A stretch of DNA of 64,000 bases, taken from Dictyophora rubrovolvata (Eukaryota; Basidiomycota; Agaricomycetes; Phallales; Phallaceae). The notes under the pieces were generated by a model, which saw only the letters and a list, made by a program, of their open reading frames with translations, did no database searches and was not told the origin of the DNA. This document shows positions 40,486-63,130 of this stretch, one piece after another. The translations under genes were made by a program, and so were the position numbers. Location of the stretch: contig CP114123.1 in assembly GCA_029959195.1 (NCBI GenBank), positions 1,798,001 to 1,862,000 on the forward strand. The letters are read 5' to 3'. Position 1 is the stretch's first letter. Every line of letters starts with the position of its first letter.

Positions 40486-40825
40486 GAAGAACAAAAGAGA
40501 ACCAGTTTGATACTTAACCCTGATCGGCTCGCAATGAGTAGCATGTGGACAACATACATTCGTTGGAGCCAGATTAGGCTTACTTATCGTAACCGTAAAG
40601 TTCTGTCCATAATAATCTCACTTCGGAGCACCAGGCCAAGAAACACATTTTGAAATATTACATGAAGGACTCCTCGTGGAAGGGTTAAATTCCATATGGC
40701 ACCTACGTCACGTGACAATTTTGTGTGTTTTTTTTTAATTGAGTTCTTACAGAGCCTTTACCTCCGAGTCAATTCAAAAACGCTATAAATGGTGAACGTT
40801 TAGCCTTGCCGTTGCATTTTTGCTA

Positions 40826-43319
40826 ATGGCTAGAAGATCTGGCGTCCGAGTCATGATGCACCAAGCACTGGTATTCGTAGGGCTTCTACTTGCTCTGTCT
40901 GGAAATGTCGCAGCATTATGGCCCAGGCCCAGCACAATCAGCACCGGATCGACTCGTCTACGTCTTTCTCCCCAGTTTTCAATCGACATCGCCATAAAAA
41001 ATGCGCCGAAAGATTTGCAAGATGCAGTGACACGTACTAAAGACTTCATTTCTAACGATAAACTCCAACTGCTGGTCCCAGATAGAGGAGCAAGTCTCGC
41101 CAGCTCTCTCAAGACAGCGAAGCAGCTGACAACTCTCACTGTGTCTTTGACCGGAAACAGACCCGTCAAGAGTATTTCTGACGAGGCCGTCGCTGATTTA
41201 ACTGAACGAGACGAGTCGTATACCTTGCATGTTCCGAACGACGGCTCAAATGCTCAGCTGTCTGCTAACTCGTAAGTGAACTTTTTCATTGTCCTAAAAA
41301 CTCGCAGCAAAGTCTAATATTGGTGCTTCGCATTATAATAGGACATTGGGGCTCTTGCGTGGACTGACTACTTTCACCCAGCTTTGGTATTACCTCGAGG
41401 GCGAAACGTATACCATGGAAACACCGATCAGTATCAGCGATTCTCCTCGTTATCCATATCGCGGGTTTATGCTTGACACGGCGCGCAATTTGTGGGGACA
41501 CTTTTAATATTTCTTTATTCCAATTGGAGCTGACTGGCAACGACAGCTTCCCGGTTTCCGACATTCTGTCAACAATAGACGCACTCAGTGCCACGAAGGT
41601 AATTAAGCATACCTTGACATATCTTGGATCATCATAACGTTAATGAAGATTAACACTTTCCATTGGCACATCGTGGACAGCCAGAGCTTCCCTCTCCAAC
41701 TCAAGAGTTTGTGAGTTAATTAAGCTTCATTAATGCTGATGAGATGGCTTATACGTCATTTAGCCCTGAACTGTCAGAAGCTGCTTATGATTCTTCATCC
41801 ATTTACACGGAATCCGACGTAAAAAATGTTGTATCTTATGCTGCCGCTGTAAGTTTCGCGCTTATTACAATGAGGAGCTGAGTTACTGACACTTCCCAAG
41901 CGCGGTATTGATGTCATGTTGGTATGGATACTCTTTCTCGTCGACATTACTTGGGGTCTGATCCATTTTCGGTATAGGAAATGGACACACCTGGACATAC
42001 AGCAGCCATAGCTGTTTCACACCCTGACTATGTTGCATGCAACAATCTCCAACCTTGGGCTACATACGCAAATGGTAAACACAGTACTCTTTCGGGTGAT
42101 GTGGTCCATTCATCCTGACTATGCATTCTCTTTTCATAGAACCTCCCGCAGGACAACTGCGTTTCACAGATAAAAATGTGATCGAATTCGTTCAATCCCT
42201 TTTCAAATCGACTGCCCAGCTTTCGATGTCAAAGCTATTTTCAACAGGCGGCGATGAGATCAACACAAACTGCTATGATCAAGATGGTCCGACACAGCAG
42301 GCGTTGCAGGCGAATAATCAGACATTCGAGCAGGCATTGAGTACTTTTACGCAACAAACTCATAGCGTTTTGGAGGGGCTGGGAAAGACGCCTGTGGTTT
42401 GGGAAGGTAAAGCGTTAATATTCACATGTCATTTATAAGAGTGTAGGTTTGACTGTCGTCTTGCAGAGATGGTACTCGCTCATAATGTGACGCTTTCGAA
42501 TAGCACCATTGCTTTGTAAGTATTTGTTATGACGCTGCTGTTTGCCACGCAATATTGATTGATCCTTAGAGTCTGGATCTCCGCAGAAGATGCATCTGCG
42601 TATGTATATACATTGCGTCGGTACACTTGCGCATAACCTCCTCACATCATTCTATTCTTAGTGTGGCTGCCAAAGGCTATAGAATCGTTCACGCTGCTAG
42701 TGACTTCTTCTATTTGGTAAGCAGTTATTGTTTTCACGCTCTAAAGTTTGTACATACCGACTGATCATGTCACAGGATTGCGGCGGGGGTGGTTGGGTTG
42801 GCAACAACATTGAAGGGTATTGCTCGATCTAGTGCATCTCACAGACTATCTCTGAACTGCTCATTACAGGAATAGCTGGTGCGATCCTTTCAAGACATGG
42901 CAAAAGGTAGGCATATTAAGCACTTCTCTGCTTCCCTTTCAGCTGATATGTTATCGTAAAGGCGTACTCCTTCGACCCACTCGCCAATATATCGGCAAGT
43001 CAGCACCATCTCGTTCTCGGCGGTAAGCTCAAACTCCAACCTTTATCTTCTTTCCTTACGGACGCATGGATTGAATTTTGCATTATCAGGCGAACAACTA
43101 CTCTGGACAGAACAAAGCGGTCCGCAAAATTATCAATCTATAATTTGGCCTCGTGCTGCTGCTTCTGCCGAGGTATTCTGGACGGGCGGAAACCTCAACG
43201 TCAGCGAAGCTCTTTCTCGTCTTCATGATTTCCGATACAGACTCGTTCAACGGGGCGTTAATGCTATCAACTTGCAACCTGAGTGGTGTGCGCTCAGACC
43301 TCATGCATGTGATTTGTAG
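40826..43319 (+). CDS. Secreted beta-N-acetylhexosaminidase (GH20)
   Basis: Removes terminal GlcNAc/GalNAc from chitin oligomers and glycans outside the cell. The ATG at 40826 is followed by a signal peptide (VMMHQALVFVGLLLALSGNVA, with ATGs at 40853/40856 as alternatives). The N-terminal domain includes LWPRPSTISTGSTRL and LSANSTLGLLRGLTTFTQLW. The catalytic barrel is spread over a dozen exons: YPYRGFMLDTARNFFPVSDI; INTFHWHIVDSQSFPLQ; EMDTPGHTAAIAVSHP; the catalytic Asp-Glu in STGGDEINTNCYDQDG; TPVVWEEMVLAHNVTL; VHAASDFFYLDCGGGGW; GGEQLLWTEQSG; IWPRAAASAEVFWTGG. Stop at 43319 after LRPHACDL. All splice joins tested kept frame, so the enzyme looks whole. The closest family behaviour is fungal NagA/Hex1; chitin recycling or autolysis is the likely role. 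Confidence 0.94.
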
Positions 43320-44298: not shown

Positions 44299-45729
44299 GC
44301 CATTTCCTATCATTGAGAAACAAGAGTTGATCTGAAAAAAACCAAAACGCAGATGGGAATGTTACGTCGAGCATGAATGTTGGTCCGCGAGCCCGGTTTG
44401 GAGACATTTGGCGCAAGGATGCGAATCTCAGAACTTCATTTTGCCCAGAGGGATGGTTTCAGTACCAAAAGGATTCCACGCAGTGATGCTGTAGACTGAC
44501 ACACCCCAAATTGTCTATAACGCTGTAAATTCCAGTCATCCAACGCAGAATAACCAATCACTATCATCAAATGGGCAGATCCACGGAGTCAATTAGATCA
44601 TAGATATAATAAAAAGCTACACATATAAATGCGTTTTGATTATGTTGACACAAGATTTGATTTAGAGACTATTAATAGGAGTTATAAGGAATGTATCAGG
44701 AAGTGAGATATGGAGTTCTAATGCCTCAGTGGAAGTAGCTAAAGCTATTTCGATACCAAGTCCGACATGTAAGGAGATCGCTAGAGATGAACATTGTTAG
44801 GCTCAGCGCAGGATAAGATAGATTGGGATCATACGTGGACGTGGTTTGCCATCAAGCTCGCAGATGGGTTACAGCACGCATTGTATATATCATTCCCTAC
44901 AAAGTGTCAAAAACGTATGTCATGAATGGATAGTATGAAGCCGTACAAGTAGTATATGATTGGTTGGCGGCCGTACAATTGAATGTCGCTAGGAAACTGT
45001 AGTCCACGAATGATGAGTGGGAAATTCTTTGTCGGTGCTCATGTCTGGTTTCGAAAGAACTGGAAATTGCCTAGAAGGCATGAGGTAGTTTCTTTCAGTG
45101 CAGCCTCGGTCGCCTCCAACAAGACCAGTGATTTGCCAGTGATGCAAGGGATAGGTCTGTGACCTTGTGTCACACCGGCTATGAGCCAATTTCTGCGCAT
45201 GCCATCTTTTTGAATCCTGTTATCGTTCGTGAATCCGCGCCCTGTGTAGTCGGTGTTATATGGAGGTCCGTATTTTTGTCAAGTTCCCTCCGTTCCTGAG
45301 CCAGAGAAATCTCTCCATATTAGATCATAAATCCTTGCGCGCATTTGCTTTCGAACTTTGAAGTTCTGGCATTACTCCGTGAACTCGAGCAGCTGAAACC
45401 AGAGCAGCACTTGCCTCACAAAAAGAAAAGGAAACAGCGCTCCAGAATACAACAATTGCCAAAGTAGCAATCCAGAATTTAGCACCTTTGTCCAACCTTT
45501 GTCTCTCACCAGTCACTCGTACCCGAAGTATGTAGTTCTCTCACATTTTTTGATCAACGGTGTATTCATTATTGTATTTTTTTGCTGACTCGACCCTGTT
45601 TCGACAGGCGGTTGCAAATCTCACAGCTCCCTTTCAGCCCCCCGCGCGCCAAAGTGCTAGTGACATCACTTCGCTCACAAGAAGCTTATAATATGATCTT
45701 ACCAAGGCTGAATCTTGCGCCGCTTCAAG
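44299..45729. other. Gene-poor region before the inverted duplication
   Basis: No complete gene. On the minus strand 45306-45530 reads VTGERQRLDKGAKFWIATLA then a hydrophobic helix (IVVFWSAVSFSFC), like the C-terminal membrane segment of a decayed gene. The interval 45207-45375 is repeated, diverged, at 56057-56230 in the same orientation. Confidence 0.4.
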
Positions 45730-46255
45730 AGAAACCAGTGAAAAGAATTTATTCGGACACCAACAAAATACAACGGCGTTAGTGATGACCAACGATTGAC
45801 ATAATAATAGCAAGTTTTGGAAGGCAGGAGTGCACCTGATTGAACAAGAAACCTGTCTCCCACCCCCCGCCCCCACCAAAGACTGAGCAATTCGAGCAAC
45901 ACCTAAATAGGTAAATTTGACTAATTTGACCCAGTTAACCCAAGATACAGCGAAAAGCCATTCTGTCGATTCACGTCTAAGTCAGCGGGCAGGTTACGTA
46001 CATAAACAAATTTTTTGTACGAATAAGCGGTAGACGAAAAAATTCCTACGGGAGTTCGTACTGCATGCAAGGGAATATATAGGTTTTCTGATATAAATAG
46101 AATATAGAATAGAACATAAAGTGAAAGAAACAAATAGATAAAGATAAAGACGATGAGTAATGGAGCGGAAATAAGTCATGCAACTTGTATTTGTTTTGGG
46201 CTCGGTCGCGTATTAGATAAGTCTGTTCCTTGGGTCCGTAGGACTGACGACCAGA

Positions 46256-47158
46256 TCAGACGTTATCTCCATTGTTAATGGCTGAATACGAATACGAATA
46301 CTTCCCACCACATCTGCCACCTTGTCTGTGACGTCGCCATAAGAAGCTATTAAAAGATAATCAGAATCATATGAATAAATGGAGCCATCTTATCCACTCA
46401 CATCGCGACAACAATAGCAATCAGAGCTGCAACTCCAGCTGCAATCCCAATACCAAGCTGTACTCCATTTGTGTTCAAGGATCCTTTGGAGTAGGCTTTG
46501 GCCAGAATAACTTCACAGTATTGTTGATTATTTGGCAGCGAGGGATCTTGTCCTGAAGGATGTATAAGATCCATTGTAAGACGAAGGTCCTTCGCATTAT
46601 ACTGGGACGGAAGCTGACGGCGAATAGGAAAGCCAGCTGACGAAGGCTTGCCAAAGACGCCGTTCGGGAAATTAGCACCTTTGGACGCAAATGTGAATGG
46701 AAGAGAAATAACATAGAACATCTAAACGCACCAGTGCCATTCTGGCGAAAATCCCTAGTATCAGGGGGAATAGGAACATTACTCGCTGCTCCTATACCTC
46801 TTGCTGCAAGAGAACCCCGTGGCGGTGTAAGTGCAGCTGTTGCAGCGGCGGTAAACAATTCTTCTCGTGCACCGCTTCCTCCTGCAGCCGTGCATTTCAT
46901 TGGGAAAACAACAAAGAGGTCCGCGCCTGACTTGTATCCTAGGTCTGACCCATCTTCGAGCCACTCACTCCATTGCTGACAACCGTTTGCTATTCTATCC
47001 TGGATGTATAAGGTCTGGTTTTGACGATCTTCGGTGCCCGAGGGCGTCGTTCGGAATAATGTAATGGAGCATTGGTCAGCACTCATCATCGATATTGGAG
47101 AAGAGAAAAAAGTTATTGGAGAAGAAAGGAGGGTTATTAGAGAAGAAAAGGAAATCAT
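46256..47158 (-). CDS. Unrecognised single-pass membrane protein, copy A (intact)
   Basis: Three exons on the minus strand. The start at 47158 gives a hydrophobic signal-like N-terminus built from a 21-base repeat (SLITLLSSPITFFSSPIS); ATGs at 47089/47086 (MMSADQCSITLFRTT) are alternatives. The ectodomain reads LYIQDRIANGCQQWSEWLED, GADLFVVFPMKCTAAGGSG, then NVPIPPDTRDFRQNGTG (an N-glycosylation site), and after an intron ANFPNGVFGKPSSAGFPIRR and MDLIHPSGQDPSLPNNQQYC. A clear helix follows (VQLGIGIAAGVAALIAIVVA), then after a second intron a basic tail FLWRRHRQGGRCGGKYSYSY ending at 46256. This is a type I topology with a short cytosolic tail. No family is known to me. The frame is open throughout. 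Confidence 0.7.
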
Positions 47159-47240
47159 TGAAGAAGAAAAAGAAAATTATTGAAGAAGACGAGGAAGTTA
47201 TTAAAGAGGAAGAGAAAGTTATTGGGAAGAAATGAAAGTT
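47095..47240. repeat. Pyrimidine minisatellite in the 5' region of membrane gene A
   Basis: On the coding (minus) strand, units of about 21-24 bases built on TTCTTCTCYAATAAC repeat some six times and extend into the proposed signal peptide. The same array occurs in the right arm at 53915-54055. Confidence 0.8.
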
Positions 47241-47624
47241 GATCAGCGTTTAGTAGCCCTATTTAAGTCGGAACTCATCCTTGTTTCAGTTCTTTGCATC
47301 GCATGCGACAACCCCCATGGGAATGTACGGCCTCGTATGCCCGCGCGCATGATCCAAATCACCCCGCGACATCTAGAGTCTCGACGTGAATTTGTCTACT
47401 ACATTTAAGAACGATTCCAGCTTTCGTGGTACGCGGTCTAAGCGACAACTATTCTTTTTGTTTTCAAAGCCTTAGTTTAACGGCTGCACCGGTTCATATC
47501 ATGTTCCGTTACAACCCTGAACCCACTGCAAACATGCCAGAGTCTTCAGACCCTCGGGGAAAGGGGTCAAAATGGGGAAATGGGGTGCTTGGGACGTTGA
47601 ACAGTTTGGCCCGTGACAGCAGTA

Positions 47625-47854
47625 CACGCTCAGCAAGAAATGTCGCCATTAATGGGACCTATGGATTGGGCCTGAATCGCCACCAATTTGGTACCATTTC
47701 AGTACTGACTTCATTTCGTTTTGGCTAGCCGAGACTAACCGAGACTAACCGATGCGATGACATAAGACATTGGTACTGAAATGGTACCAAATTGGTGGCG
47801 ATTCAGAGCCCAATCCATAGGTCCCATTAATGGCGACATTTCTCGCTGGGCGTG
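47625..47854. mobile_element. 230-base MITE with about 82-base terminal inverted repeats and TA target duplication
   Basis: The ends CACGCTCAGC and GCTGGGCGTG begin inverted repeats running about 82 bases inward (through a palindromic GGTACCATTTCAGTAC part), with a spacer of about 65 bases holding a tandem CCGAGACTAA. The element is flanked by TA on both sides (47623-47624 and 47855-47856). The right arm of the inverted duplication has the uninterrupted site GACAGCAG-TA-GTTGATG (reverse complement, near 53513), proving insertion. TA duplication and TIRs point to a Tc1/mariner-type non-autonomous element. No coding capacity. Confidence 0.93.
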
Positions 47855-48082
47855 TAGTTGATGTAGTAGAATGGGGTTTGTAAATTTGGACAAACAATTG
47901 ATTTGTTGAAGCGGCACATAATACGCTGGAGTACGGTGGACAGAAGTGCCCAGCTCCATTTCCACGGCTGGAGTGGTGCCGGTCAGTGCAGGCAGATGGC
48001 GCAGTATCTGGATACTGCCCACTGCTATCCTAGCCAGTGTCAGAAATACTATATATAGATCTTCAATAGACCTAATACTATG

Positions 48083-48187
48083 GCGCGGATAGCTCAGTTG
48101 GATGTCTGCATGTGCTGCTTCGGGAATTCGGTGGATAAACTTGGGTTACCTGTGGGTTTGACGCGCGTGTGTGCTCTTCTTTTTTTA
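48083..48187 (+). mobile_element. tRNA-derived SINE-like sequence
   Basis: GCGCGGATAGCTCAGTTGG is a very good tRNA 5' end with an internal A box (TAGCTCAGTTGG). About 60 bases on, GGGTTTGACGC is a weakened B box, and a T-run at 48179-48186 could end polymerase III transcription. The stems needed for a working tRNA (D stem partner, acceptor 3' strand) are missing, so this is a SINE head or tRNA relic, not a tRNA gene. Confidence 0.55.
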
Positions 48188-48932
48188 ATGCCAAATCTCT
48201 ATTACTAATTTTTTTTACGCATTTTAGCTACATGAAAAAATACCGGACCCAGTGCCTACTATAGGAAATGTAGCTGGCCCCCCCCCAGCTCTGCTCAGGC
48301 TATCCCGGATGCTACTGCAGCAGAATGTGCCCATTAGAGACCAGCTGCCCCCCCCCCCTGTGTGCAGCTGCAGATACCTGACAAGCCACACCACAGGGCC
48401 GGGATTCTCCTGCTACCAGACAGCCTGGGATGAGTGGGGTGGGGGTGGCCTGGTGGTGGTGGGTCGCGCGGCTGTGGCTTTTCAAACTCAGCTACCCCCA
48501 CACCTTGCGCAGAATGCCTAAGCCCACACAAAAGCAGCAGACACATGACAGGAAGATTAGACAGTGTAAGTAGTGCTCTATGCTGCTACAGGTCTATAGC
48601 TAATGGCTATTATTAGTTCTATGCCTACTTTGGGGGCAATCAGCCATTTTTAGTGAGATGCTGCAGGGTGAGATTAGTGTGCAAACATTAGAAAAGGCGA
48701 GAGAGCTAGGTAACCAGTACAAGCATGATGTACCTGAAATAAACCAAGTAGGCCCTGTATTTTTTAGACCTTTCCCTGACCTACCCATTATCCCAGCTAT
48801 CCGATCTCTTAGAGCTTCTTCTGATGCTCCCAGATACCAAATTTAAAAATGCCTATAGCCTCTACAAGGCAATTCGAAATTGTGTGTGGCAAAAGCTGTA
48901 TGACACTTGCCGATACTTCATAAGCCCTATAT
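48188..48932. other. GC-rich foreign-looking repeat sequence
   Basis: 48260-48500 is GC-rich with two pure C runs (nine and ten bases) and several CAGCTGC blocks, unlike anything else in the window. 48655-48845 is open on the plus strand (MLQGEISVQTLEKARELGNQ, FFRPFPDLPIIPAIRSL) and resembles a fragment of a longer protein, perhaps from a mobile element. It may be the body or tail of the SINE-like unit to its left. Confidence 0.35.
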
Positions 48933-49647
48933 TGTCAGGGCTACTCACTCAGACTAGAGGGAGGGGATCCTAAGTAAAATATATTCTAGGAATAATACTA
49001 ACTCACCTAGAGGGAGGGGATCCTAAGAGAACAAACTTAGGGACCCCTCCTCTAGGGCTACTAACTATATACTATGAAAAACAGCAAAGGCCATATGCAG
49101 CCTTTGGTTCATGGACTGGGTGTGTATTGCACTGGTCCTGGACTTTTAGCCGGGGCCTAGGCCATGGCTCTGATGAGAACGGGCACTCAGCACCCATTGA
49201 AGGGAGAATGGGAATACGGAAGGAGAGGGAAACGCAAGAGATGGGATAGAATACAAGAAATATGGAAATAAATAAAATAGACCAGAACCGAAGATAAATG
49301 TAGGAAAATAAGGGGACGACGCTAGCGTACCCTGACATCTTCGGTTCTGGTTTATTTTATTCACTTCCATATTTATCATATTTCATTTCATTTCTTGCTT
49401 TCCCCTCTCCTTCTGTATTCCCATTTTTCCCTTCAACAGGTGCTGAGTGCCCATTCTCATCAGAGCCATGGCCTAGGCCCCGGCTAAAAGTCCAGGACCA
49501 GTGCAATACACGCCCAGTCCATGAACCAAAGGCTGCATATGGCCTTCACCGTTTTTCATAGTATATAGTTAGTAGCCCTAGAGGAGGGATCCCTAAGTTT
49601 GTTCTCTTAGGATCCCCTCCCTCTAGTCTGAGTGAATAGCCCTGACA
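48933..49647. mobile_element. Back-to-back pair of solo-LTR-like units (fossil)
   Basis: A unit with TGTCAGGG...CCCTGACA ends occupies 48933-49337 (about 405 bases). A shorter copy lies in reverse orientation directly beside it (49338-49647), ending CCCTGACA. Together they form a large palindrome with arms of more than 300 bases and a loop of about 43 bases around 49295-49337. The left unit also has an internal tandem duplication of about 46 bases ending GGGGATCCTAAG. The TG...CA ends fit Ty3-type LTRs. No internal coding sequence remains; the element is a broken relic. Confidence 0.6.
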
Positions 49648-50208
49648 GAGGTGATGATGATTTCTTGGGATCTCTGGATGTTGAAGTGAAGAGTCGGCTT
49701 AGGATCACACTCACTTTTGGGCACACAATTGGCAACCAACTTTCTGTTAATAATTTTTTTGATCTTACAAATGAATAAAAAATATTTAACTGTCAAGGTA
49801 ATGTTTTGGAGGTCAATACAAAGCTTCATTTTTTTTCTCGGCCTGGGACAAGAATCACAGCCTCCATTCTTGTCTGTTTCAAGTCTCTCAGGGTGGTGGT
49901 TTACAGGATGTCATTGAAAAGGACAGCCTGTCATCACAACTACAGTAGAAAGAGTCATAAAAAGTTGTATTATTGCATGGCAAAAACATAATGAGTCTGA
50001 GGAATATGTGCAATAATGAAACACTGATTTCTGATACACACTAAACCTGTGAATTTATTTCCTTGTAAACATCTCTAAAACATAAAATATCACAAACACT
50101 TCATGTGTTTTCCAGCCCTCTCATTGTTGGAGTTTATGATGCAGTCACAATACTAGGTAGATTAGAACTTATATTACATAACGCACTGTACATAGTATCC
50201 TGAGGCGC
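49648..50208. other. AT-rich spacer between LTR relics
   Basis: No gene or named repeat. It is AT-rich with several poly-T/A runs and may be the remains of a mobile element interior. Confidence 0.3.
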
Positions 50209-50681
50209 TGTCAAGATCCAGATCTGCCAATAAACCCGCTGACCTGATATTACTCCGAATTACAACTCCGAAGATTATGAAACTTATGTCACATCCATTA
50301 TGATTATGTTTGCTCCGAAGTAATCTGTTAAACCAGAATTACCTAAATTAGAATACAATAACTGATTGTATTCCAAATCCGCTCATTCTGTTTTAGTCTT
50401 ATTATTTTATTGTAATCCGAATCATGTTTTATTGTTAAACCACTTTTATCAGTGCTGCCAAACTAGTATATTCCCATAGTATAAATAACCCTGAATCATG
50501 TATCTAGTTCCTCAGTTTCGAAATCAAACTAGTCATCTGACTCGTGGCTATTCTCGTTTGATACTTTCATCTTTAAAATCTGACTGCTAAATCTGGACTC
50601 ACTCCGAACTCTATCCCAAACCTCTGACCGATATATCTGCTATTCGCGGAGTGTTGCGAAGCAAATTGCTGAGCACGTACA
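50209..50681 (+). mobile_element. Ty3-type LTR fossil, plus orientation (473 bases)
   Basis: Begins TGTCAAGATCC and ends GCACGTACA, contains a TATAAATAA box near 50481, and is followed by AGTAAGTGGCGCAACATATAAG and a short leader to about 50812, as expected of a 5' LTR with primer-binding site. A 473-base relative in reverse orientation lies at 52555-53027. No intact coding region follows; the element is broken. Confidence 0.65.
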
Positions 50682-51463
50682 AGTAAGTGGCGCAACATAT
50701 AAGTTGAAGCCTGTTCAGTATACCGATCGTCTGTGATATTGGTCCCACGAGTCTGCCCGAGTTAACCGAAGTCCAGTATCTTCGGTAACCTCGGAAACTT
50801 TGATACGTATGCAACAGGAGCAAACAGGAAGGAAAGGGGAACCAAGTGGGAAATATGAGTCAAGGAAAATAGTGTAGGATAAAATTGTAAAGGTAGAAGA
50901 GTGAAAATAAAGCTTGTGTTCAAATTCAAACTGAGGGAAAAGTTGCGATACAAAACTAAGGAATTTGATGATATTTTTGGTCTTAAAACTGCGGATTTTT
51001 ATATACATGAGTAGCTCAGTGTCTGAGTGAAAAACAGAATACCAGTTATCTAAAAGTGATTGAAATGAGGTAAGACCATGTGGAAAAATGAATTCATGGT
51101 CTGGGGATTGGAATTTAAGAGAAAGAAAAAGGTTTCGCTGAGTTATCAAAATGTGAAATAAGGGAAAAATATATAGTAAAATGTGAACACTAAGAAAAAG
51201 CTAAGTTTAAAGGTGACACAGCCTTTATAATCATCATTTGGAACCCAACCTCGGCACATATACGATGGACAGGCTGTGCGAGTCTTGGTTATTCCGGCTC
51301 GGGTGGTACTAAGCCCAAAGCGTCAATTTCTACTGTTTCTCTTTGTATGGCATTTTCAAGCACAACAACTTAACAGGCACTATAACGATCTGAAGATAAT
51401 AGCTAAATGTCATAGCTATATATACAATCAGAAAAACTACAAAGATATTTGTTTGAGGCCGTC

Positions 51464-51975
51464 TGTCATGCCCCACATGCCCCAGAGTCCAAACCCGGAC
51501 TATTCCGAATCCCATACTACATACCCCATATTTCCCCTTGACTCCAAGACCCGTACTCCATCCATACTCCATATCAGACACCTTCCTTAAGGGGATGTGT
51601 ATTCCAGTCGCTTAGTAATAAGGTACCTGGTTGTCATCTTGGCTTGCACTAGTCAATTTCCACTTTCCCTTATTTGTCATTATCCCCATTTACGTAGTTC
51701 CGCTCCCTCCTGTATTTAAACCCCAGCTCCCTCAGCTGTGGATCCTCAGTCTGAATATAATCAGTTTAATCAGTTACTCTCTCATCTCTAGTCCGTCTCG
51801 TACTCTTAATCTGTATTGCGTAGTTGACTCGGACTTAACATTCAAGTCAACTCGTACTTATCGTTCACATCATCTTCGATGACGTGGACTTGTACTCCGT
51901 CGTCGTATCACATGTCGTCGGACTTGTACGTACTTGCATACTTCCTCGTATTCCAAAATCGAGGGATATTGTAAG
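51464..51975 (+). mobile_element. Second Ty3-type LTR fossil, different subfamily
   Basis: Begins TGTCATGCCCC and runs to about ATATTGTA (51972), followed by a leader GTGAGTGGGTGCAACATATA like that after the 50209 LTR. A GTATTTAAACC box near 51711 is the probable promoter. Its body is unrelated to the 473-base LTR, but the shared leader shows the two elements are relatives. Broken; no internal genes seen. Confidence 0.55.
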
Positions 51976-52554
51976 CTGGGTGAGTGGGTGCAACATATAA
52001 GTTGAAGCCAAGTCCCTCACCCTGTACTTCAATACTCCGTCTCCCGTCTGACCCTGTGGTCCGGACTTCTTTGGAACTATCCGGAATAGCCTTGGGCCAC
52101 CATATGTAACACCATCTAGTCTCCATGGAGTGGGTCCTGGTACTGATTTCATGATGAGGAAGTGGTGGGGGAATAAATGATATAGTGAGTGTGCAAGCGT
52201 TGATAACAAACCAAACAACAACAACAAATAAAATGATCCTAAGATCTTGTGTGCGTGAGGGGGATGATAAATGTGGATTCACAATAAAATGGTACGACAA
52301 TATGCTGATGATAAAACAGCGATAGAAATCTGTTAAAGTTAGTAAGGCTTCAACGACAATACGAATCATTGAGTTTATACTCCGAGGCCTCACTCAGAGT
52401 AATCCAAAGTAATAGATGTGAGTGAAGAAATTGTTAAGTTCCCGAAGTTACCGAAGATACCGGACTTCAGTTAATTCAGGCAGACTCCCAGGACCGATGT
52501 CACAGACAATCAGTGTACTGAGCAGGCTTCAACTTATGTGTTGCGTCACTTACT

Positions 52555-53027
52555 TGTATGTGCTCAGCAACTTGCTTTGCAACACTCCACGGATAGCGGA
52601 TATATCGGACAGAGGTTTGGACAGAGTTCGGAGTGAGTCTGGATTTAGTGGTCAGATTTTAGAGGTGGGAGTATCAAACAAGAATAGTCACGAGTCAGAT
52701 GACTAGTTTGATTTCAGAACTGAGGAACTAGATACATGATTCGGGGTTATTTATACTATGGGAATGTACTAGTTTGTCAGCACTGATAAAAGTGGTTTAA
52801 CAATAAAACATGATTCAGATTACAATAAAACAATAAGACTAAAACGGGAATGAGCAGATTTGGAATACAATCAGTTATTGTATTACAGATACAGAACATC
52901 GGGGTTTAGCGGATTATCGGGACAGATGAAAATAAACCTAAGTGACATAAGTTTTCGTAACATCAGATTCTGGTCATCAGAGTCGTATCGGAATATCGGA
53001 ATATTGGTTATTAACTGGATCATAACA
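52555..53027 (-). mobile_element. Ty3-type LTR fossil, minus orientation (473 bases)
   Basis: Reverse-complement relative of 50209-50681, of the same length, ending (minus strand) in GCACATACA and followed by the same leader down to about 52436. The two LTRs therefore face each other across 1.9 kb that contains the 51464 LTR. This arrangement is not one element but two insertions or an inversion. Broken. Confidence 0.65.
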
Positions 53028-53431
53028 CCGTATAGAGACAAATACGTGTACAGATGTTGTATTTCGCAAGATAAAGGAAATGTGGATGTGCAGAGCATGA
53101 AATAAACATTCTTTTGAGTAAATTCCATGCACAATGTCACAAAAACTCACATTGGGTACGATGACGTTGGTACTGGGGCCGGGTTGATGTGGGTGGTCCC
53201 GGTGCTTAACGTGAGACAAATGACTGACCACTAACCTACCACTAACTATCAGTGGTAGTCGACCACTGACCAACCACTGAATACCACTACATTCAGTGGC
53301 CGCTTTTTCCACAGTGGGGATAGTCTTCCTCCGAATATGTATTGGGGTCGAAACAATTGTCATTCAAGAAGACATCATACTGTGTACACTGTGGCGGATG
53401 GCGGCTAATGGACATGTGGTTGCACTGTATT
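53028..53431. other. Spacer with CCACTGA-type short repeats
   Basis: 53222-53302 contains seven CCACT(G/A)A-like units, some inverted, forming small hairpins. Just right of it, 53388-53530 (GGCGGATGGCGGCTAATGGAC and following) is repeated, diverged, at 56555-56680. Confidence 0.45.
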
Positions 53432-55425
53432 CTATCTCCAGCGTATTATGCACCGCTTCAACAAATCAATTGTTTGTCTAAATTTACAAACCCCATTCTA
53501 CTACATCAACTACTGCTGTCACGGGCCAAACTGTTCAACGTCCCAAGCACCCCATTTCCCCATTTTGACCCCTTTCCCCGAGGGTCTGAAGATCTGAAGA
53601 CTCTGGCATGTTTGCAGTGGGTTCAGGGTTATAACGGAACATGACACGAACCGGTGCAGCCGTTAAACTAAGGCTTTGAAAATAAAAAGAATAGTTGTCG
53701 CTTAGACCGCGTACCACGAAAGCTGGAATCGTTCTTAAATGTAGTAGACAAATTCACGTCGAGACTCTAGATGTCGCGGGGTGGTTTGGATCATGCGCGC
53801 GGGCATACGAGGCCGTACATTCCCATGGGGGTTGTCGCATGCGATGCAAAGAACTGAAACAAGGATGAGTTCCGACTTAAATAGGGCTACTAAACGCTGA
53901 TCAACTTTCATTTCTTCCCCAATAACTTTCTCTTCCTCTTTAATAACTTCCTCGTCTTCTTCAATAATTTTCTTTTTCTTCTTCAATGATTTCCTTTTCT
54001 TCTCTAATAACCCTCCTTTCTTCTCCAATAACTTTTTTCTCTTCTCCAATATCGATGATGAGTGCTGATCAATGCTACATTATTCCGAACGACGTCCTCG
54101 GGCACCGAAGATCGTCAAAACCAGACCTTATACATCCAGGATAGAATAGCAAACGGTTGTCAGCAATGGAGTGAGTGGCTCGAAGATGGGTCAGACCTAG
54201 GATACAAGTCAGGCGCGGACCTCTTTGTTGTTTTCCCAATGAAATGCACGGCTGCAGGAGGAAGCGGTGCACGAGAAGAATTGTTTACCGCCGCTGCAAC
54301 AGCTGCACTTACACCGCCACGGGGTTCTCTTGCAGCAAGAGGTATAGGAGCAGCGAGTAATGTTCCTATTCCCCCTGATACTAGGGATTTTCGCCAGAAT
54401 GGCACTGGTGCGTTTAGATGTTCTATGTTATTTCTCTTCCATTCACATTTGCGTCCAAAGGTGCTAATTTCCCGAACGGCGTCTTTGGCAAGCCTTCGTC
54501 AGCTGGCTTTCCTATTCGCCGTCAGCTTCCGTCCCAGTATAATGCGAAGGACCTTCGTCTTACAATGGATCTTATACATCCTTCAGGACAAGATCCCTCG
54601 CTGCCAAATAATCAACAATACTGTGAAGTTATTCTGGCCAAAGCCTACTCCAAAGGATCCTTGAACACAAATGGAGTACAGCTTGGTATTGGGATTGCAG
54701 CTGGAGTTGCAGCTCTGATTGCTATTGTTGTCGCGATGTGAGTGGATAAGATGGCTCCATTTATTCATATGATTCTGATTATCTTTTAATAGCTTCTTAT
54801 GGCGACGTCACAGACAAGGTGGCAGATGTGGTGGGAAGTATTCGTATTCGTATTCAGCCATTAACAATGGAGATAACGTCTGATCTGGTCGTAAGTCCTA
54901 CGGACCCAAGGAACAGACTTATCTAATACGCGACCGAGCCCAAAACAAATACAAGTTGCATGACTTGTTTCCGCTCCATTACTCATCGTCTTTATCTTTA
55001 TCTATTTGTTTCTTTCACTTTATGTTCTATTCTATATTCTATTTATATCAGAAAACCTATACATTCCCTTGCATGCAGTACGAACTCCCCGGGCCGTAGG
55101 AATTTTTTCGCCTACCACTTATTTGTACAAAAAATTTGTTTATGTACGTAACCTGCCCACTGACTTACGCGTGAAATTGACGGAATGGCTTTTCGCTGCA
55201 TCTTGGGTTGACCGGGTCAAATTTGCCTATTTAAGTGTTGCTCGAATTGCTCAGCCTTTTCTGTGGGAGCAAGGCGGTGGGAGACAGGTTTCTTGTTCAA
55301 ACCAGGTGCACTCCTGCCTTCCAAAACTTGCTATTATTATGTCAATCGTTGGTCATCACTAACGCCGTTTAAATTTGTATTTTGTTGGCGTCCGAATACA
55401 TTCTTTTCATTGGTTTCTTTAGCCA
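53432..55425. repeat. Right arm of the 2 kb inverted duplication
   Basis: Reverse complement of 45730-47935 without the MITE. It carries copy B of the membrane-protein gene. A few indels and substitutions separate the arms. Confidence 0.9.
53986..54883 (+). pseudogene. Membrane protein copy B, frame broken near its start
   Basis: Same three-exon structure as copy A: LYIQDRIANGCQQWSEWLED, second exon with ANFPNGVFGKPSSAGFPIRR and the helix VQLGIGIAAGVAALIAIVVA, third exon with FLWRRHRQGGRCGG, stop at 54881-54883. Compared with copy A, five bases are missing just after MMSADQC (about 54075), so the ATGs at 53986, 54055 and 54058 no longer lead into the ectodomain. The rest of the coding sequence is unchanged by eye. 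I infer recent loss of function in this copy. Confidence 0.7.
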
Positions 55426-56055
55426 TGCTGTAACATATGTAAGTGCGATGGGCATAGTTCAAATATTGTGGTGCTGTAAACATCCGTCATTATTATGAGT
55501 CGTCATTAGTATGGAACTTGGAATTCGCAGTCATATCACTGTTTACAACTTCAAAGCAATATCAATAGCAGTATGGGCCCAATATGGGTCGGTTCCTTCC
55601 CGAAAGATATGCGCAACGGCACGATTTCTTTCAATCTGGAGAGCAAGACTTCTTCTAAGGAAATAGCATATCATATTATACCTACTGAATTAAAATGTAT
55701 GATATGACGTACTTGTCACTTGCGGCCGTTGGGATCCATCCGCACAGTATCTGATATATAACACCCGGCCTGCACTGAGGGCTTTCTTTTTTGAGGTAAG
55801 CAAGAGACGTTCCAGCATGTTACAACGCATCGGGATTTGGTTATCAACGTTCCTGTCAATTTATTCAGCACGTTTGAGGTGTTAGTTAACCCTTGCGGTG
55901 AAGTATTTCCGAAGTATTGGCTTGTGACGTGCAGAGTATCAACTTTGAACCCACGACAGAGATGCGTATTAAAGTAAGAGGCACAAGGAAGTACAAGCTG
56001 AGTAGCACACGTAAATCCTGCACCTCATTTCAAAACGACACAAAACGAGGATTTT
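55426..56055. other. Intergenic, nothing recognised
   Basis: About 630 bases with no gene, family-like frame or clear repeat. Confidence 0.4.
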
Positions 56056-56056
56056 T

Positions 56057-56230
56057 CATGCCATCTTCCTGATATCGTTCGTGAAGCCGGAACTTTATAA
56101 TTGCCCTATGTGATTGGTGTCAATGGAGGTCGGTTTTTTTATCTTATTTCTGAATAAAAGAAATCTCTCTAAATTGGGTCGGGCGCATTTGCTTGTTCAA
56201 GTTCATGAGTTTTGAACTTTTGAGAAACCG
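56057..56230. repeat. Diverged copy of 45207-45375
   Basis: Shared blocks in order include ATGCCATCTT, TCGTTCGTGAA, TGTCAATGGAGGTC versus TGTTATATGGAGGTC, AGAAATCTCTC and GCGCATTTGCTT. Both lie in the same orientation, outside the two arms of the inverted duplication. Confidence 0.6.
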
Positions 56231-56255
56231 TTTCACAAAAATACCGACTCACGTA

Positions 56256-56385
56256 TTTAACAGGTTTCAACGTCAGAGTCGTAATCTGGGTCGCGTTCTG
56301 AACGGGACGTAGATTGAACGGCAGGTTTGCTTAAATCGACAGGTCGATCTTTTCTTTCAAATGCCGTCATCAAAGCGGTGTTTTC
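56256..56385 (-). pseudogene. Coding-like C-terminal fragment, unknown
   Basis: On the minus strand this reads NTALMTAFERKDRPVDLSKP, AVQSTSRSERDPDYDSD, ending ETC and a stop at 56256. The composition is strongly protein-like and ends as a normal C-terminus, but no upstream exon was found next to it. The sequence just upstream (56395-56505) is instead similar to the region upstream of the SDR gene, so this may be a gene fragment left by rearrangement. Confidence 0.35.
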
Positions 56386-56394
56386 ACTTCGCCC

Positions 56395-56505
56395 GTAGTT
56401 ACTATGAGAGATTCGACAATGCAGTCAGCACCGAGCACACCGTGTGTGGCAAGAACTGAAAAGAGGTTCTAAATTTATGCCGCATGCGAAACCAGCACTA
56501 GTAGA
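56395..56505. repeat. Diverged copy of the region upstream of the SDR gene (17660-17770)
   Basis: Shared in order with 17668-17770: ACTATGAGA, CTCGAC/TTCGAC, AGTAAGCACCGA versus AGTCAGCACCGA, ACACC.TGTG, AAATTTAT.C.GCATG.GAAACCA. It has the same orientation as the original. The similarity stops before the SDR coding exon. Confidence 0.6.
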
Positions 56506-56544
56506 TGATTGCGCGGATAGTCTTCTTTCGAATAATAAAGTCAA

Positions 56545-56680
56545 AACGATTGTCGTGTGGCAGATGGCGCCTAATGGACGCGGCTCCGTGTCAAAACCCT
56601 TAGCCGGACGCCCCGCTTTGACAAATCAATTGTTTGTCCAAATTTACAAAACTTCATTCTACATCTCTTTTTGGCCTTGA
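56545..56680. repeat. Third, diverged copy of the inner end of the inverted duplication
   Basis: TGTGGCAGATGGCGCCTAAT and CAAATCAATTGTTTGTCCAA followed by ATTTACAAAACTTCATTCTAC match 53388-53530 with some gaps, in the same orientation. Confidence 0.65.
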
Positions 56681-57069
56681 AATTTGTTTATTCCGGCAGA
56701 AACTTTGAAGCTACATAATCTAAAGCCACGTCGTCAATGGGATAGAAACATCCCAGGTGTGAAATGAAGGAACGGAGCCTACCACGCGCGTCGCTCACCT
56801 CAATACTCTATCGCGTGCTGGTAGAGGCACCTTGAAAACCTTGGGTTGAAAAAGAGTTCAATTCCGATGCGTTCAGAGAACGTCTGTGTGTCCGTGTCCG
56901 TAACATTGAGTCGGATGGCGGATGTAATGGACGAAACCCGTCAACTGGTCGACTCGAATTAACAACCCACTCGATTTCCAAACGCGCCCCGCACTCACAA
57001 CAAACTCCTCCATCCCATTCTCTCCACCCATTGCTTCCCTCTACCCCATTTTCACAACGATGTCGCGAT

Positions 57070-57807
57070 ATGTTTCGTCCTCTCCTTCAACCTGCCGCCG
57101 AGGACAAGTTCTCCTTGACGTCGCCCTGCCCTGCAGGCGGCTCTGAGCCAAATCACCAACTCGGTCACAAAAATTTCAATCGTAGTAGTACCCACGTCAA
57201 CTGCTTCATGATGCGATCTTTAACCTGGCTTCACGGCCGTAGCGATGAAACATCCTTCGATATAGAAGAAGCGACCAACCATCACCCTTTATATACCGAC
57301 ACGGTTTCCGCGTCGCCCCAATGTGTTCCTACTTCAAATACGGTGGCCCTGCTAGGACGTTCCCCCAAAAAGCTTATCCTACTTCTGTTACTGTCCTGCG
57401 ATCTCGTTCCCTCCGGATGTGTCTTTCTCCGCATTCAACGTCCCGGAATCGAGAAGAACAGCATCGCAATCTATAAGCTGTCCGTTGCTGCTCATCAAAC
57501 AGAGGACACGCACGCCAACGCGTCAGTAAGGACAATACCTACAGTTAACATTGGGACCCGTGGGCTGCCAGTGTCACTTCATATAACGCTTGCGAACAGG
57601 GTAGACACGCTCATGGTTACGTCAACATGCAGGATGAGCAACGTCATGAATACTCGTATTTTAACGCTTCTGGTTCTCGCTCTTGGCCAAGCACCATCAC
57701 TCCGAGTCCTCGGCCGTGTTTCAATATCGACGTTTTGCTGTTGGATTACCATCCGAAGGATTTTCCTCTCGTTCACATCGTCGTCAAGCTTACAATCAGG
57801 AAGATGA
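57070..57807 (+). pseudogene. Open frame of 245 codons after a strong CT-rich leader, coding status doubtful
   Basis: 56985-57058 is a C/T-rich leader typical of expressed fungal genes, ending TCACAACGATGTCG. The ATG at 57060 opens only a short frame (MSRYVSSSPSTCRRGQVLLD); the ATG at 57070 in another frame stays open to 57807 (DETSFDIEEATNHHPLYTD; LGRSPKKLILLLLLSCDLVP). A third frame near 57627 reads MQDEQRHEYSYFNASGSRSW and looks more protein-like there. Shifting coding character between frames suggests a decayed gene. Confidence 0.3.
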
Positions 57808-57834
57808 CAGTAAACCGGTCGTCAAACACATGAG

Positions 57835-58209
57835 AATATGAAGAAGAATTATATAACCGACGAATGGTGAAACGATAATACAGAAACGCACGATGATTCT
57901 CGTCCCAAGTCAAAAAGAATACAGACCTTATTTATAACGACCTCCGGTGTCTGGTCAGGTGCCGATTTACTTCAACGGTAAGAAAAATTATTCTTTTGTA
58001 AGATGAACAAATTGGTTAAAAAGTCGATAGATTTCTGCTACCCCCAAGGTGAGCCCAATCCTAAGCTGACTCTTCGCGTCGGAACCCGACATTTAAAGAT
58101 CCCGAGAGATTGTTATCGTCTCTGGATCCGTCCATGTTTCGAAATATAATAGCTGATGGTGTTCTATTTGTAAGGTCGGGAATAAATAAAGTGTCATTTG
58201 GATGAGAAG
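57835..58209. other. Intergenic, nothing recognised
   Basis: No gene or repeat seen. Confidence 0.4.
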
Positions 58210-59595
58210 AGAAATGATGATTACCTATGTTGGAGATTACCCAGAATATCTATTGCAACCTATTTAGCACGAATTTGAAGTTCAGTGCATTACATAATTT
58301 GTTTGAAACAGAGGGTATTTACCATGAAAGTATTCGGAATCTACAGAAGAATTCAGAAAACATAATCAAATTCTATAGAGATTGATATTACAAGTTCCAA
58401 GACTACAATAGTAATGGAAAAAGAATCACAAGGCTTTCCGAGAGGCCAAAATGAGATGTTGACGAAAGGACTCTATGTTGTTTAAGCTCACCAAAACCGC
58501 GATACGCCTATAGTCCTCAGTTAAAAACAGCTTTGATAAAGATGTGATTTGAAACCTACTCTGTTTAAGTAACATTTGAAACAAGGTCGTTGTTGTTTTG
58601 AATGCCAGCTTCACGCTTTAACTTCCATGTGCCCCAAACCTTCCAAAAACAAACGCAAAAGACAATCAGATCAGTTGAAATAACACAGATATTTGCAGCA
58701 GCGGCCTCTATGAGGGATTGTGCTAAAATTGTATCACAACGGGATCTGCAGTGTCAGTTAACTTATTATAAAACACCCTTACTCAAATCCACCGTCATGA
58801 TTACTATTGCTAGAGAAACTTTATTATATCTAAAAAAAAGCGAAATGAAACAATGATTTCCCATTGCATTAAGGACTCTTACGATAAGTGTTTATAATAA
58901 GCCCTCCCAAAAAGAAAAAGGCTAAAGGCCCAACTATGACCTTATTGGCTTGATACAGTGCGTATGCTCGAATGACCAATAAGCCTAAACGAATACTTGT
59001 AAAAAATTCATTCACAAATCGTATACTGTACTAACCTTGCACACCAGTATACATATCCCACGATGAACGCAGTAGACGTTACACGATTCAGGTCGTCGCA
59101 CGAGCTGCTGCTACTTTTTTTAGTTTCCAAATCTCCATGATTACGATATCTTACCTGCCTACCTGCAGAAGGGGTAAAAAGGGAAAAATTGTTTACAAAC
59201 TCGTCTGAAGAACCATTCGCGTGAAGCTCAACCGAAAGAAAGATCCTTGACTGATCAAAATTCCATATTTTGTAAACACGTAAAGCAAATTTGGGATACT
59301 AAGGGGTTTGGGCGATAGCCACACATATGTAATACCCCGTGGCATAGACAACACTACAGTATAAACAAGGAGTGCTGGGGTATTAAATTTCAACATTGAA
59401 TTGCACGAGTGTATTAGATATCAGATAACGCACCAAACATGCTCGTAGAAACAAGCGATACTACGTAACTGATATCCTACGGTCAAATAAAGACTGGATA
59501 TGAAGGATGAGAACCTACTCTAGATATACTTCTTGGACCAATTCTAAAGCGACCGCACTACTAGTGGAGGTAGCATTAGCAATATTGTTGTTCAT
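58210..59595 (-). pseudogene. DUF6533-like multi-pass membrane protein, tandem copy 1 (decayed)
   Basis: On the minus strand from an ATG at 59595: MNNNIANATSTSSAVALELV, VQEVYLE, then LLVYTVVLSMPRGITYVWLS, PKPLSIPNLLYVFTKYGILI, a pattern like DUF6533 (hydrophobic helix, E/YVW, then a helix with a RYG-type end), and a downstream helix near ILFRCYL-type sequence (58430-58610: MKLAFKTTTTLFQML). It corresponds exon by exon to 61323-63030 over 1.4 kb. Frames in this copy are interrupted more often than in copy 2, and the Glu of EYVW is replaced by Thr. Agaricomycetes carry large families of these; function unknown. Confidence 0.5.
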
Positions 59596-60352
59596 TTTGG
59601 CCAGGGAGGCTAAAGTGCAAGGGCGCAAAGGAGTGAAGTAATTTGACCCAGTAGCTTGAGCTGTGAGGCCAAAGTAGGATGGATAGATCGATGTTGAATA
59701 CGCGCCGAGTTTTTTTTTAATTTTTGCGCCCAGCTCAGAGCTGAAAAGGAGTTGCTAGTGTCTGAATTCAATTTGAAATAAAATTTGAACACTTTAGCTC
59801 CAGTGTCACAATCCTTCGGAATATTCAGATGCTGCGCTAAAAAGTATTCATTAGATGCTTCTATATTTAACTGGCTATAACAATGTGCATCAGCGGGTCG
59901 CGCGACCTCTCCATGGTGGATGATGATTGCGATGATTATGGTAATTTGCTAAGTAGAATCGCTCACTAGTCCACAACATCTGAATTATACATCTGCCGGT
60001 GAACCTACGACACTACGGCCATGATGGAATGAAGACTCACCGGCGCTGATATTGCCAACAACTTTTGTGGGCCTTGAACAAAGGTGTGACGCGGCCATTG
60101 ATTCTCTAATAAATTGCCATCTGGAAATGATATTGAAGATCATCCCAGCCTTGTACTTTCATTTTAGCTCCAAAGACACACATATTGAAATAGTTCAATA
60201 TGATGGCTGTTCAAGTTGTAAGGGAAACGTTCACTTTGTCCGAGTTGTGACCAGTCGAGTTTAGTAAGCGTTAGCGCCCAACAGACGCGAACACGGGCAG
60301 CGTGTTTAGTTGTGGGGAATCTTCGGCCAGGTTTGGGCCAGATCCGCAATGG
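59596..60352. other. Spacer between tandem copy 1 and the NOT2 fragment
   Basis: 59596-59700 still matches the upstream region of tandem copy 2 (63031-63130). The remainder holds nothing recognised. Confidence 0.45.
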
Positions 60353-61215
60353 CAACAATGCGTGCACCCTCAGTGTCCCTACGGGCACCACTGGCAGCCA
60401 CAACAGTCGTGTCTTTAACCTCGGGATTCAAAGAACGCGAATCTCGATACCGCTCTGCTCGCAAATCTCGGTGTACACGTGAACCAATTAGGGTACGTGT
60501 GATGTTCGTCGTTATGCAGAAGTTCTCTTTTTTATTTATTCATACTTATAACCGTGTCTTTAGAAAGATATTCTAATTTTATTACCCCTTGGGACCGGTT
60601 CAAATGCTACTACAGTTCGAGTTGTGCCCGAGTTTGAATTGCCGTCGTCCTACAATGTCCAACCACCACCGCCAGGTCCAACGAGAGTCGTAGCGTCTAA
60701 TGATGAAACCCCGTTTTCCATATTCTATTCGTCCCCGCGAGATACACCTCAAGAAATAACAGCACAAGAGCTACAAATGACATGTCTCTATTTACCAACG
60801 CGTTCTTGCAGATGGAATAGGAACTCTAAGGCACTGTTTGACTAAGGACACGGAAACGCCAATTCTATTCAACACATTACATCTGTATGCTCCCGACCTT
60901 CGCCGATCAACGAGGCTCTGTGTATCTGAGGGAAGATATCCAACGCGTTCAAGACTAATATTAACTCGTCGCTTCATATACTCAATGCTATCTGCCGATT
61001 GACTCTATCTGATTGGTATATCTTCTGCACAAAGCTCCCGAAGGTGAAGCTGGACTCATACACATCCTGGGTTTCCGAATCATGGTTGAAGGAGCGAGCT
61101 TGAAGTACATACTCTACGCTGAACTAAATTTGGAAAGATCTGTTTCATACATAGTTCATACGAGAATTGGGATTGTAGCCTTTCATGTCGGCATGTTGGT
61201 TTCCGGAATCTGATC
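60353..61215 (+). pseudogene. Partial, intron-containing copy of NOT2
   Basis: Matches the minus-strand gene at 2203-4429 from about 3190 down to about 2270: TACGGGCACC.. GCAGCCACAACAGTC, then RYRSA and IRVRVMFVVMQK over the old intron with its GTAC/GTATG start, then ELPSSYNVQPPPPGPTRVVA and FYSSPRDTPQEITAQEL, the next intron, an exon start (ATGGAATAGGAACTC), and EGEAGLIHILGFRIMVEG. Introns are kept, so this is a DNA-level copy, not a reverse-transcribed one. About 90 bases are missing early, and an insertion of about 170 bases lies at 60860-61025. Substitutions are many; it is an old, dead copy. Confidence 0.9.
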
Positions 61216-61322: not shown

Positions 61323-63030
61323 TTAAAGTGATTCTTCGCGTCGATTTGCGATGTCTGGAAATCCTGAGAGATCTTCATCATCTCCTTCCCTCGTGTCGGT
61401 GTTTTCAGGAGTGCCCATTTCCACAAGAATGGACTGGTGTATATAATTCATCACGTCTTGAAATTGAATAGTTGGTAATGTTTTGTTCATAGTTTGAGTT
61501 GCTGCCGAATTTTGTTGACGAAGATCCAAAGTAAAATCGGCGATTAAAATGGACGAAAAGCTTAAAATTGGAGATAAACAATGACATTGGGATAGAAAGG
61601 GAAATGACCATACCAACGTTGAAAACCGCTCAAGATGTCTACTACAAACTGATGTAACACAAATTGAAGTTCAGTGTACTAGGACCAGATCTCGACCAAA
61701 GCGGTGTGTACTTACGCTATCCAAGAACTGGAGAAGAATAATAAAATTTAAAAGTCAGTTACCAAGAGAATGTAGCCAAGTTTTGCGTAGATCTTACTTC
61801 AACAATGACTGTAAAGGTGACGGTGAAAACAATCACAAAGCTTCCCGGAAGGTTAGAATGTGATGTTGAGAAAATATTCTACGCTGTTGAAGCTCACCAA
61901 AATCGTGATACAGCTATAATACATTCAGTAAAATGGCTTATTTAATATTGTAACTGAAACATACTCTGTTTAAGTAGCACCGAAACAAGATCATTATTAC
62001 TTCGAATGCCAGTGTCACGCTTTAGTTTCCATGTATCCCAAACTTTCCATAAGCAAACACAAAAGACCACCAGGTCAGTAAAAATGGCAAAGATATTTGA
62101 GACTAAGCTAATTAGAAAATAACGAACTAAATTGTATCACGGTAAGACTTATTAGTTCACTTGTTATGAATGGCACCCCTAATACTCAAAACCTACCGCC
62201 AGTATAGCTAGACAAACGTTTAAGAACAAGATTTAGCATAACCATAACTTGGGAATTTATTGCTGACCTTACGCATCCGCTGTAAATTATTGGCCCTAAA
62301 TAAAAAACTAAGCCAGTGCTCCCATTGCATTGAGGATTCTTACTACAAATGTTCAAAGCAAGCCCTCCCAAAAACAAGAAGGCTAAAATCCCCGCTATAA
62401 TTTTATTCCCCCCACATAGTGAAAACCCTCGAGTGATTAGCAAGCCTGAACGAATACTTGTAAAGATATTTGATATAAACCACATGCTGCACTAACCTTG
62501 AACACCAGCAAAACCCACAACGGAGGCAGCATTTTCTACATTGACCAGGTTATTGCACACACTTTTGTTTTTTATTATGATTATGATATCATACCTTCCT
62601 TGCTGCAGAAGGAAAGTTAACGTTGTTTGCAGACACCTCAGAACTGTTTAGGCTTACTGCCACGAAGGTCAACCAAAAGGAAAGCCATTGACTGACTAAA
62701 CTTCCATATCTTGTAAAAGCGTAAAGCAAATTCGGAATACTAAGTGGTCTGGGTGATAACCACACATATTCCATTTCCTGTGGCATGGCCAGGACCGTAG
62801 TGTAAACAAGGAGTGCTGGGGCGTTACTTTTATCATTAAACTGTCCCCTTATATATTATGGGCTAACATACCTAATTCGCTGATATAAAAAAGCACGAGA
62901 ACATAACCAATAGTCAGTCAGATGAACACCGAGAATCGGGGATGAGGACCCACGCTACATATGCTTTCTGGACATATTCAGTAGTAACCACACTATTAAT
63001 GAAGATAGCATCAGTAGTATCATTGTTCAT
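61323..63030 (-). CDS. DUF6533-like multi-pass membrane protein, tandem copy 2
   Basis: ATG at 63030: MNNDTTDAIFINSVVTTEYV, QKAYVAWVL, then LLVYTTVLAMPQEMEYVWLS, PRPLSIPNLLYAFTRYGSLV (the DUF6533-like core), SANNVNFPSAARK, NVENAASVVGFAGVQG, LLITRGFSLCGGNKIIAGIL, LFLGGLALNICSKNPQC, the helix VMVMLNLVLKRLSSYTGG, TDLVVFCVCLWKVWDTWKLK, ITILVSFNSVEYFLNI, and a polar C-terminus TIQFQDVMNYIHQSILVEM ending near 61323 (DLSGFPDIANRREESL). Introns of 50-60 bases separate these. Several joins are uncertain, so the gene may be intact or slightly damaged. Family-level similarity is by pattern only; role unknown. Confidence 0.5.
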
Positions 63031-63130
63031 TTTTGGAGGCCGTCAAAATGTGAAGGTGCCAAAGGGTTGAGAAGTTAATCTGACCTACGTTCTTGAGATG
63101 TGAGGATAAGTATAATATGGACAGATGGGC

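Follow-up and report, generated by a model that had tools for sequence, protein, structure and literature searches.

A 64,000-nucleotide window of the genome of Dictyophora rubrovolvata (positions 1798001-1862000 of contig CP114123.1, here called C7, in a genome of 28.24 Mb in 11 contigs) contains an inverted duplication, in which two arms of about 2 kb, each carrying a phospholipase B relic, enclose a middle of 5.5 kb rich in repeats. We estimated at about 0.7 the probability of the explanation that we prefer, namely that a gutted phospholipase B locus was copied in inverted orientation, that the gap between the copies was filled by repeats and that sequence was passed from arm to arm by gene conversion. 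The locus is a real and fairly ordinary rearrangement of the genome, of a known kind.

Two inverted arms

Self-comparison of the window revealed a single strong inverted pair, arm A at 45730-47931 on the minus strand and arm B at 53436-55418 on the plus strand, which blastn joined at E = 0 and whose extent was taken from their alignment. A first-pass annotation of this DNA had described 45730-47935 and 53432-55425 as reverse complements over their whole length. The long inverted pair is indeed real and those ends were nearly right, but arm A contains an insertion of 230 bp that is absent from arm B. Alignment of the arms, which the annotation had proposed, gave 98.2% identity: among 1956 aligned sites 36 are substituted, 28 by transitions, and indels occur at 10 positions, the junction of the insertion being one of these. 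As seen by self-comparison, alignment and genome search, the insertion (47625-47854) is a palindromic miniature inverted-repeat transposable element (MITE) with TA on each side. The sequence of arm B is uninterrupted at this site, and sequence related to the MITE was matched at no fewer than 12 other places in the genome, part of them incomplete.

Beyond the outer ends of the arms, comparison of 44300-45760 with 55390-58000 by blastn at word size 7 gave no homology above chance; the sole significant match consisted of 29 bp of the arm ends, and the runner-up had an E value of 0.47. Arm A as a query against the whole genome returned at least 34 matches, such counts being lower bounds. The first 1895 bp of the arm were found in arms A and B only, and the remaining matches fell in the MITE or at the inner edge, or were fragments shorter than 100 bp. 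Long similar arms, opposite orientation and distinct outer flanks are the marks of an inverted segmental duplication, and all were present at this locus, which is an inverted duplication.

A phospholipase B relic in each arm

Translation of arm A gives three exons with 264 open codons on the minus strand (46256-47158; introns 46731-46679 and 46401-46347), ending in a hydrophobic segment at the C-terminus. By alignment, the counterpart in arm B lies at 53986-54883 on the plus strand, with introns 54408-54460 and 54738-54792, its end being read from the sequence. Arm B lacks 5 bp that are present in arm A at 47063-47067, and since the relatives of the gene keep the frame of arm A there, we read this difference as a loss from B. 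With this deletion near its start, arm B reaches a stop after 52 codons from the same ATG. The idea that each arm holds a full three-exon membrane-protein gene had to be abandoned, as the reading frame of B is broken and both copies are internally deleted relics; caution is needed so that the two arms are not annotated as intact duplicate genes.

Searches of the arm protein against Pfam and PDB returned nothing meaningful (best E 0.22 and 0.11), and PF01735, the PLA2_B family, gave no Pfam match at E up to 1. A pattern search for three catalytic motifs of this family, which we take to be the serine in GLSGGS (searched as GLSGGSW), the oxyanion element SGGG and the aspartate region FFGCD, found none of them in the arms, and the position of SGGG reads AGGSG. 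The relationship emerges from paralogs. Searched in six frames with the arm protein, the genome yielded a relative at C9:1.17 Mb (E 1.2e-15) and an inverted pair at C7:2.095/2.198 Mb (E 1.1e-8 and 1.2e-7). This pair contains stretches scoring over the PLA2_B cut-off and shares with the arm gene a hydrophobic tail at the C-terminus and, as judged by eye, the position of an intron. At the other end of the protein, the arm gene aligns colinearly, over its N-terminal part, with the beginnings of two genes on contig C5 (local tblastn, E 3e-7 and 4e-5, values that refer to single 5-kb subjects). Both C5 genes score over the PLA2_B cut-off: by pattern search, the C5:51-kb gene has SGGGYR and GLSGGSW, its third motif reading FFGCE, and the C5:107-kb gene has SGGGFR and FFGCD. 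Of the three motifs, the same search found FFGCD alone in the C7 pair and none in the C9 relative. As homology runs through paralogs that carry PLA2_B stretches, and as the motifs of these are missing in the arms, the arm gene is, on sequence evidence, a phospholipase B relic that lost its catalytic core and whose start was joined to its membrane tail. It thus resembles the PLA2_B family in being colinear at its N-terminus with the members on C5, and differs from it in lacking the catalytic core, with AGGSG in place of SGGG. Because the two arms are alike at the internal loss, this loss either is older than the duplication or spread from one arm to the other by conversion.

As a test of constraint on the protein, codon comparisons were too saturated to be used. 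Differences at codon positions 1/2/3 were 56/56/75 of 131 codons between the arm gene and the C9 relative and 91/85/113 of 179 codons between the arm gene and one member of the C7 pair, the excess at third positions over first and second being moderate only in both. The two C5 phospholipase genes are oppositely oriented and showed no DNA similarity to each other at E up to 0.001. We also observed, at the start of the relic gene (47100-47225), a minisatellite-like stretch rich in TTCTTC that encodes a weakly hydrophobic leader; in one related pair an ordinary signal-peptide-like start is seen by eye at this place.

Clustered differences and probable gene conversion

The substitutions between the arms are not spread evenly: 23 of the 36 fall in the outer 320 bp (45730-46049 in arm A) and 13 in the other 1636 sites (Fisher p = 1.2e-10), which suggests that this outer part was not homogenised. 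Further inward, arm A has a tract of 797 bp without any substitution with respect to arm B (46247-47043), which spans most of the relic gene, both introns included, and which we propose as a conversion tract. A clean run of this length was matched in 0 of 20000 and in 0 of 5000 permutations. Consistent with this, the variance/mean ratio of substitutions per 100 bp is 5.38 in the arms and about 0.9 in permutations, none of 5000 reaching the observed value. Blockwise likeness of the arms beyond chance clustering, as expected of palindromes under gene conversion, is therefore present. Selection on the protein does not explain the clean tract, because the introns are as clean as the exons, and non-allelic gene conversion from arm to arm is the best reading of the clustered differences.

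A single recent duplication without conversion would be an alternative explanation, in which the inner part of the arms, 99.2% identical, is young, whereas the outer 320 bp either mutate fast or represent older homologous sequence. The inner identity by itself suits a young copy, and six of the 10 indel positions fall in the outer part, which does not code for protein. However, the genome search showed no other copy of the outer stretch, which so most likely arrived with the duplication, and the density of substitutions drops about ninefold between ~46050 and ~46250, the clean part again including introns. We consider this explanation unlikely.

Other inverted pairs in the genome

The relatives on C7 form a second inverted pair, of 3.4 kb and 103 kb apart (C7:2092287-2095729 / C7:2198340-2201812), composed of degenerate phospholipase B genes with stop codons. 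It shows 147 substitutions in 3418 sites, a clean run of 596 bp (0 of 5000 permutations) and a variance/mean ratio of 8.65 per 100 bp (0 of 5000, with about 0.9 after permutation). A third gene-bearing pair, of 3.9 kb and 110 kb apart (C4:376391-380256 / C4:489903-493754), was found through partial likeness to sequence outside arm B. Its copies differ by 254 substitutions in 3790 sites (93% identity in aligned sites), with a variance/mean ratio of 8.21 per 100 bp (0 of 5000) and a clean run of 194 bp (3 of 5000 permutations), and one block, some 900 bp long, has diverged far more than the remainder. By eye, the 460-codon frame of this pair is like the window frame at 11082-12200. All three gene-bearing pairs above 90% identity that we encountered are inverted, a count that comes from following leads and not from a survey. 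Three patchy pairs in one genome can serve as material to test ectopic conversion at distances of about 5 to 110 kb.

These pairs may also be taken to suggest that long-range conversion keeps inverted gene duplicates alike at about 5.5, 103 and 110 kb, and that in the arms it preserves a new single-pass membrane protein of 264 residues, created when a dead phospholipase had its start fused to its tail. We give this extended interpretation little chance.

A repeat-filled middle and the edges of the arms

Most of the spacer (47932-53431) has copies elsewhere in the genome, with 184 matches in the spacer search. From left to right, we found a segment adjoining the inner end of arm A (47932-48932, plus strand), with one other copy at C1:416842-417854 (94%); a palindromic foldback repeat of 715 bp (48933-49647), detected by self-comparison and genome search and present in many copies; an LTR-like (long terminal repeat) element, here repeat X, which starts TGTCAAG and is also present in many copies (50209-50800, plus strand); a solo LTR of 648 bp, repeat Y (51464-52111, plus strand); and a second copy of repeat X in opposite orientation (52432-52991, minus strand). 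A disrupted repeat lies between the two copies of X, and pieces of further families lie near 53028-53326. Repeat Y shows what is expected of a solo LTR, that is TG...CA ends, a target duplication (CCGTC/CCATC, four of five bases equal) and an empty site at C7 ~1.9747 Mb, where the same repeat target is found without the LTR. Comparison of 47936-48932 with the C1 copy gave no continuation past the foldback element (best E 1.2).

These results support the first-pass view of a segmental inverted duplication whose middle has filled with repeats, given the mostly multi-copy spacer and the solo LTR with its target duplication and empty site. The annotation had named LTR and SINE-like (short interspersed nuclear element) relics; LTR-like repeats with copies elsewhere are present, but a SINE family is not supported. 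A tRNA-like stretch occurs near 48080, for which ARAGORN made no call, and no Rfam match reached the gathering score in the window; with these negatives and one other genome match, a SINE was rejected for 47936-48932. The spacer resembles known nested repeat clusters with solo LTRs in its nested insertions, its target-duplicated solo LTR, its CpG-site transitions and its partial CpG depletion. In this respect it is ordinary, lying between the arms by chance, and some of its pieces are not CpG-depleted.

The inner edge of arm B, with the adjoining inward stretch (53318-53502, plus strand), resembles 56505-56662 and C5:2515395-2515570, so that arm B extends further inward than arm A. The first two stretches, the second lying just outside arm B, are alike in direct orientation and both resemble the stretch at C5:2.515 Mb; this likeness is possibly a common upstream region of two gene families. 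A dispersed sequence starts 7 bp outside arm B (55425-56056) and has matches of 72-80% at four other places, two on C4 (inside the inverted pair), one on C5 and one on C2. As repeats adjoin two of the four arm ends, each arm could have been a mobile element with a captured gene fragment, inserted at two sites. However, just two copies were found in the genome, and inspection of the arm ends by eye revealed neither terminal repeats in common nor target duplications, which makes such an origin very unlikely.

An artefact of assembly or polishing, either a false palindrome or true arms made equal by polishing, could in principle produce the identical 797-bp tract through mapping of short reads to the wrong arm. 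The 36 substitutions, the nine indels other than that of the MITE, the MITE itself and the outer flanks, which share no similarity above chance, argue against it and make an assembly join between the arms unlikely; moreover, the contigs among those listed by length measure 1.8 to 3.4 Mb. The probability that we assign to an artefact is accordingly very small.

CpG content and silencing

The ratio of observed to expected CpG has a value of 0.94 in both arms, compared with 0.95 for the whole window, and lies between 0.76 and 1.27 in 2-kb stretches outside 46-56 kb (lowest at 62-64 kb). Nine pieces of the spacer gave, by position, 0.37, 0.32, 0.21, 1.08, 0.59, 0.80, 0.62, 0.82 and 0.73, so that five of the nine (0.62 or less) are clearly under the ordinary range. 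Transitions at CpG sites amounted to 8/28 in the arms, to 16/43, 20/48 and 23/41 between spacer repeats and their copies elsewhere, and to 30/104 in the second inverted pair. In a study of three basidiomycetes, CpG-directed C-to-T change in transposable elements is tied to methylation followed by deamination (PMC4352252). On that reading, past methylation would have affected the depleted parts of the spacer and spared the arms, which show no trace of it. Recent conversion could have refreshed the CpG content of an arm.

Silencing of both copies by hairpin RNA, as first supposed, is unsupported. Long near-identical arms are the form of known inverted-repeat silencing triggers, and the arms are indeed long and nearly identical. 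Yet a functional hairpin locus, where transcription across the two arms would yield double-stranded RNA able to silence phospholipase B genes, has hardly any probability, since the relics face outward, so that both transcripts would have the same sense and a hairpin requires a single transcript across the whole 9.7 kb with its repeat-rich gap of 5.5 kb, since the arms lack CpG depletion, and since the C5 phospholipase genes are like the arms at the protein level only, so that small RNAs would hardly match.

A model for the locus

The observed arms, clustered differences, gene relic, frameshift, MITE and nested repeats suggest an order of events that we infer together with a short original gap and with conversion as the cause of the clustering. 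A phospholipase B locus, already gutted, would have been copied in inverted orientation on the same chromosome, the gap between the copies being perhaps short at first. Transposable elements would then have nested into this gap, widening it to 5.5 kb and probably cutting arm A short on its inner side. Across much of the inner 1.5 kb, non-allelic gene conversion would have wiped out differences around the relic, while the outer 320 bp went on diverging, and the MITE of arm A and the 5-bp deletion of arm B would not have been transferred to the other arm.

Several observations weigh against this account. The case for conversion comes from the clustering, with which a difference in mutation rate or cross-polishing of similar arms is also compatible, and the C4 pair has its diverged block partly within a coding frame, so that its patchiness may have another cause. 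A repeat coincides with the inner end of arm A and hides how long the gap once was. In the genome-wide search, the arm protein matched the C5 genes weakly (E 0.007 for one, the other absent at E<=1). Within the spacer, about 475 bp (49648-50122) have no other match in the genome, repeat X (50209-50800, CpG ratio 1.08) is not depleted, and three pieces, with ratios of 0.73-0.82, come near the 0.76 of the lowest ordinary 2-kb stretch.

Gene-bearing inverted arms, a spacer and blockwise high identity are also features of the palindromes of mammalian sex chromosomes and of the willow W chromosome (PMC7023750), for which arm-to-arm conversion is the usual explanation. The locus may work in the same way on a far smaller scale. 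Those palindromes are much larger than the ~2-kb arms found here, where the arm gene is a relic and the pair is known from one genome. The locus offers a small example of the interplay between inverted duplicates, the accumulation of transposons and probable gene conversion on a compact fungal chromosome.

Surroundings of the inverted pair

We searched ten open frames of the flanks against Pfam; three matched GH20 and seven had no match. To the left of the inverted pair, exons of a GH20 beta-hexosaminidase occupy 40796-43316. On the other side, 58419-59668 and 61826-63105 form a direct tandem duplication (67-76%) of what is, by eye, a gene for a multi-pass membrane protein, the tested frames nearby being without a Pfam match. 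Finally, two short inverted similarities of 73-84% connect the opposite ends of the window, at 2338-2817 and 60543-61147.

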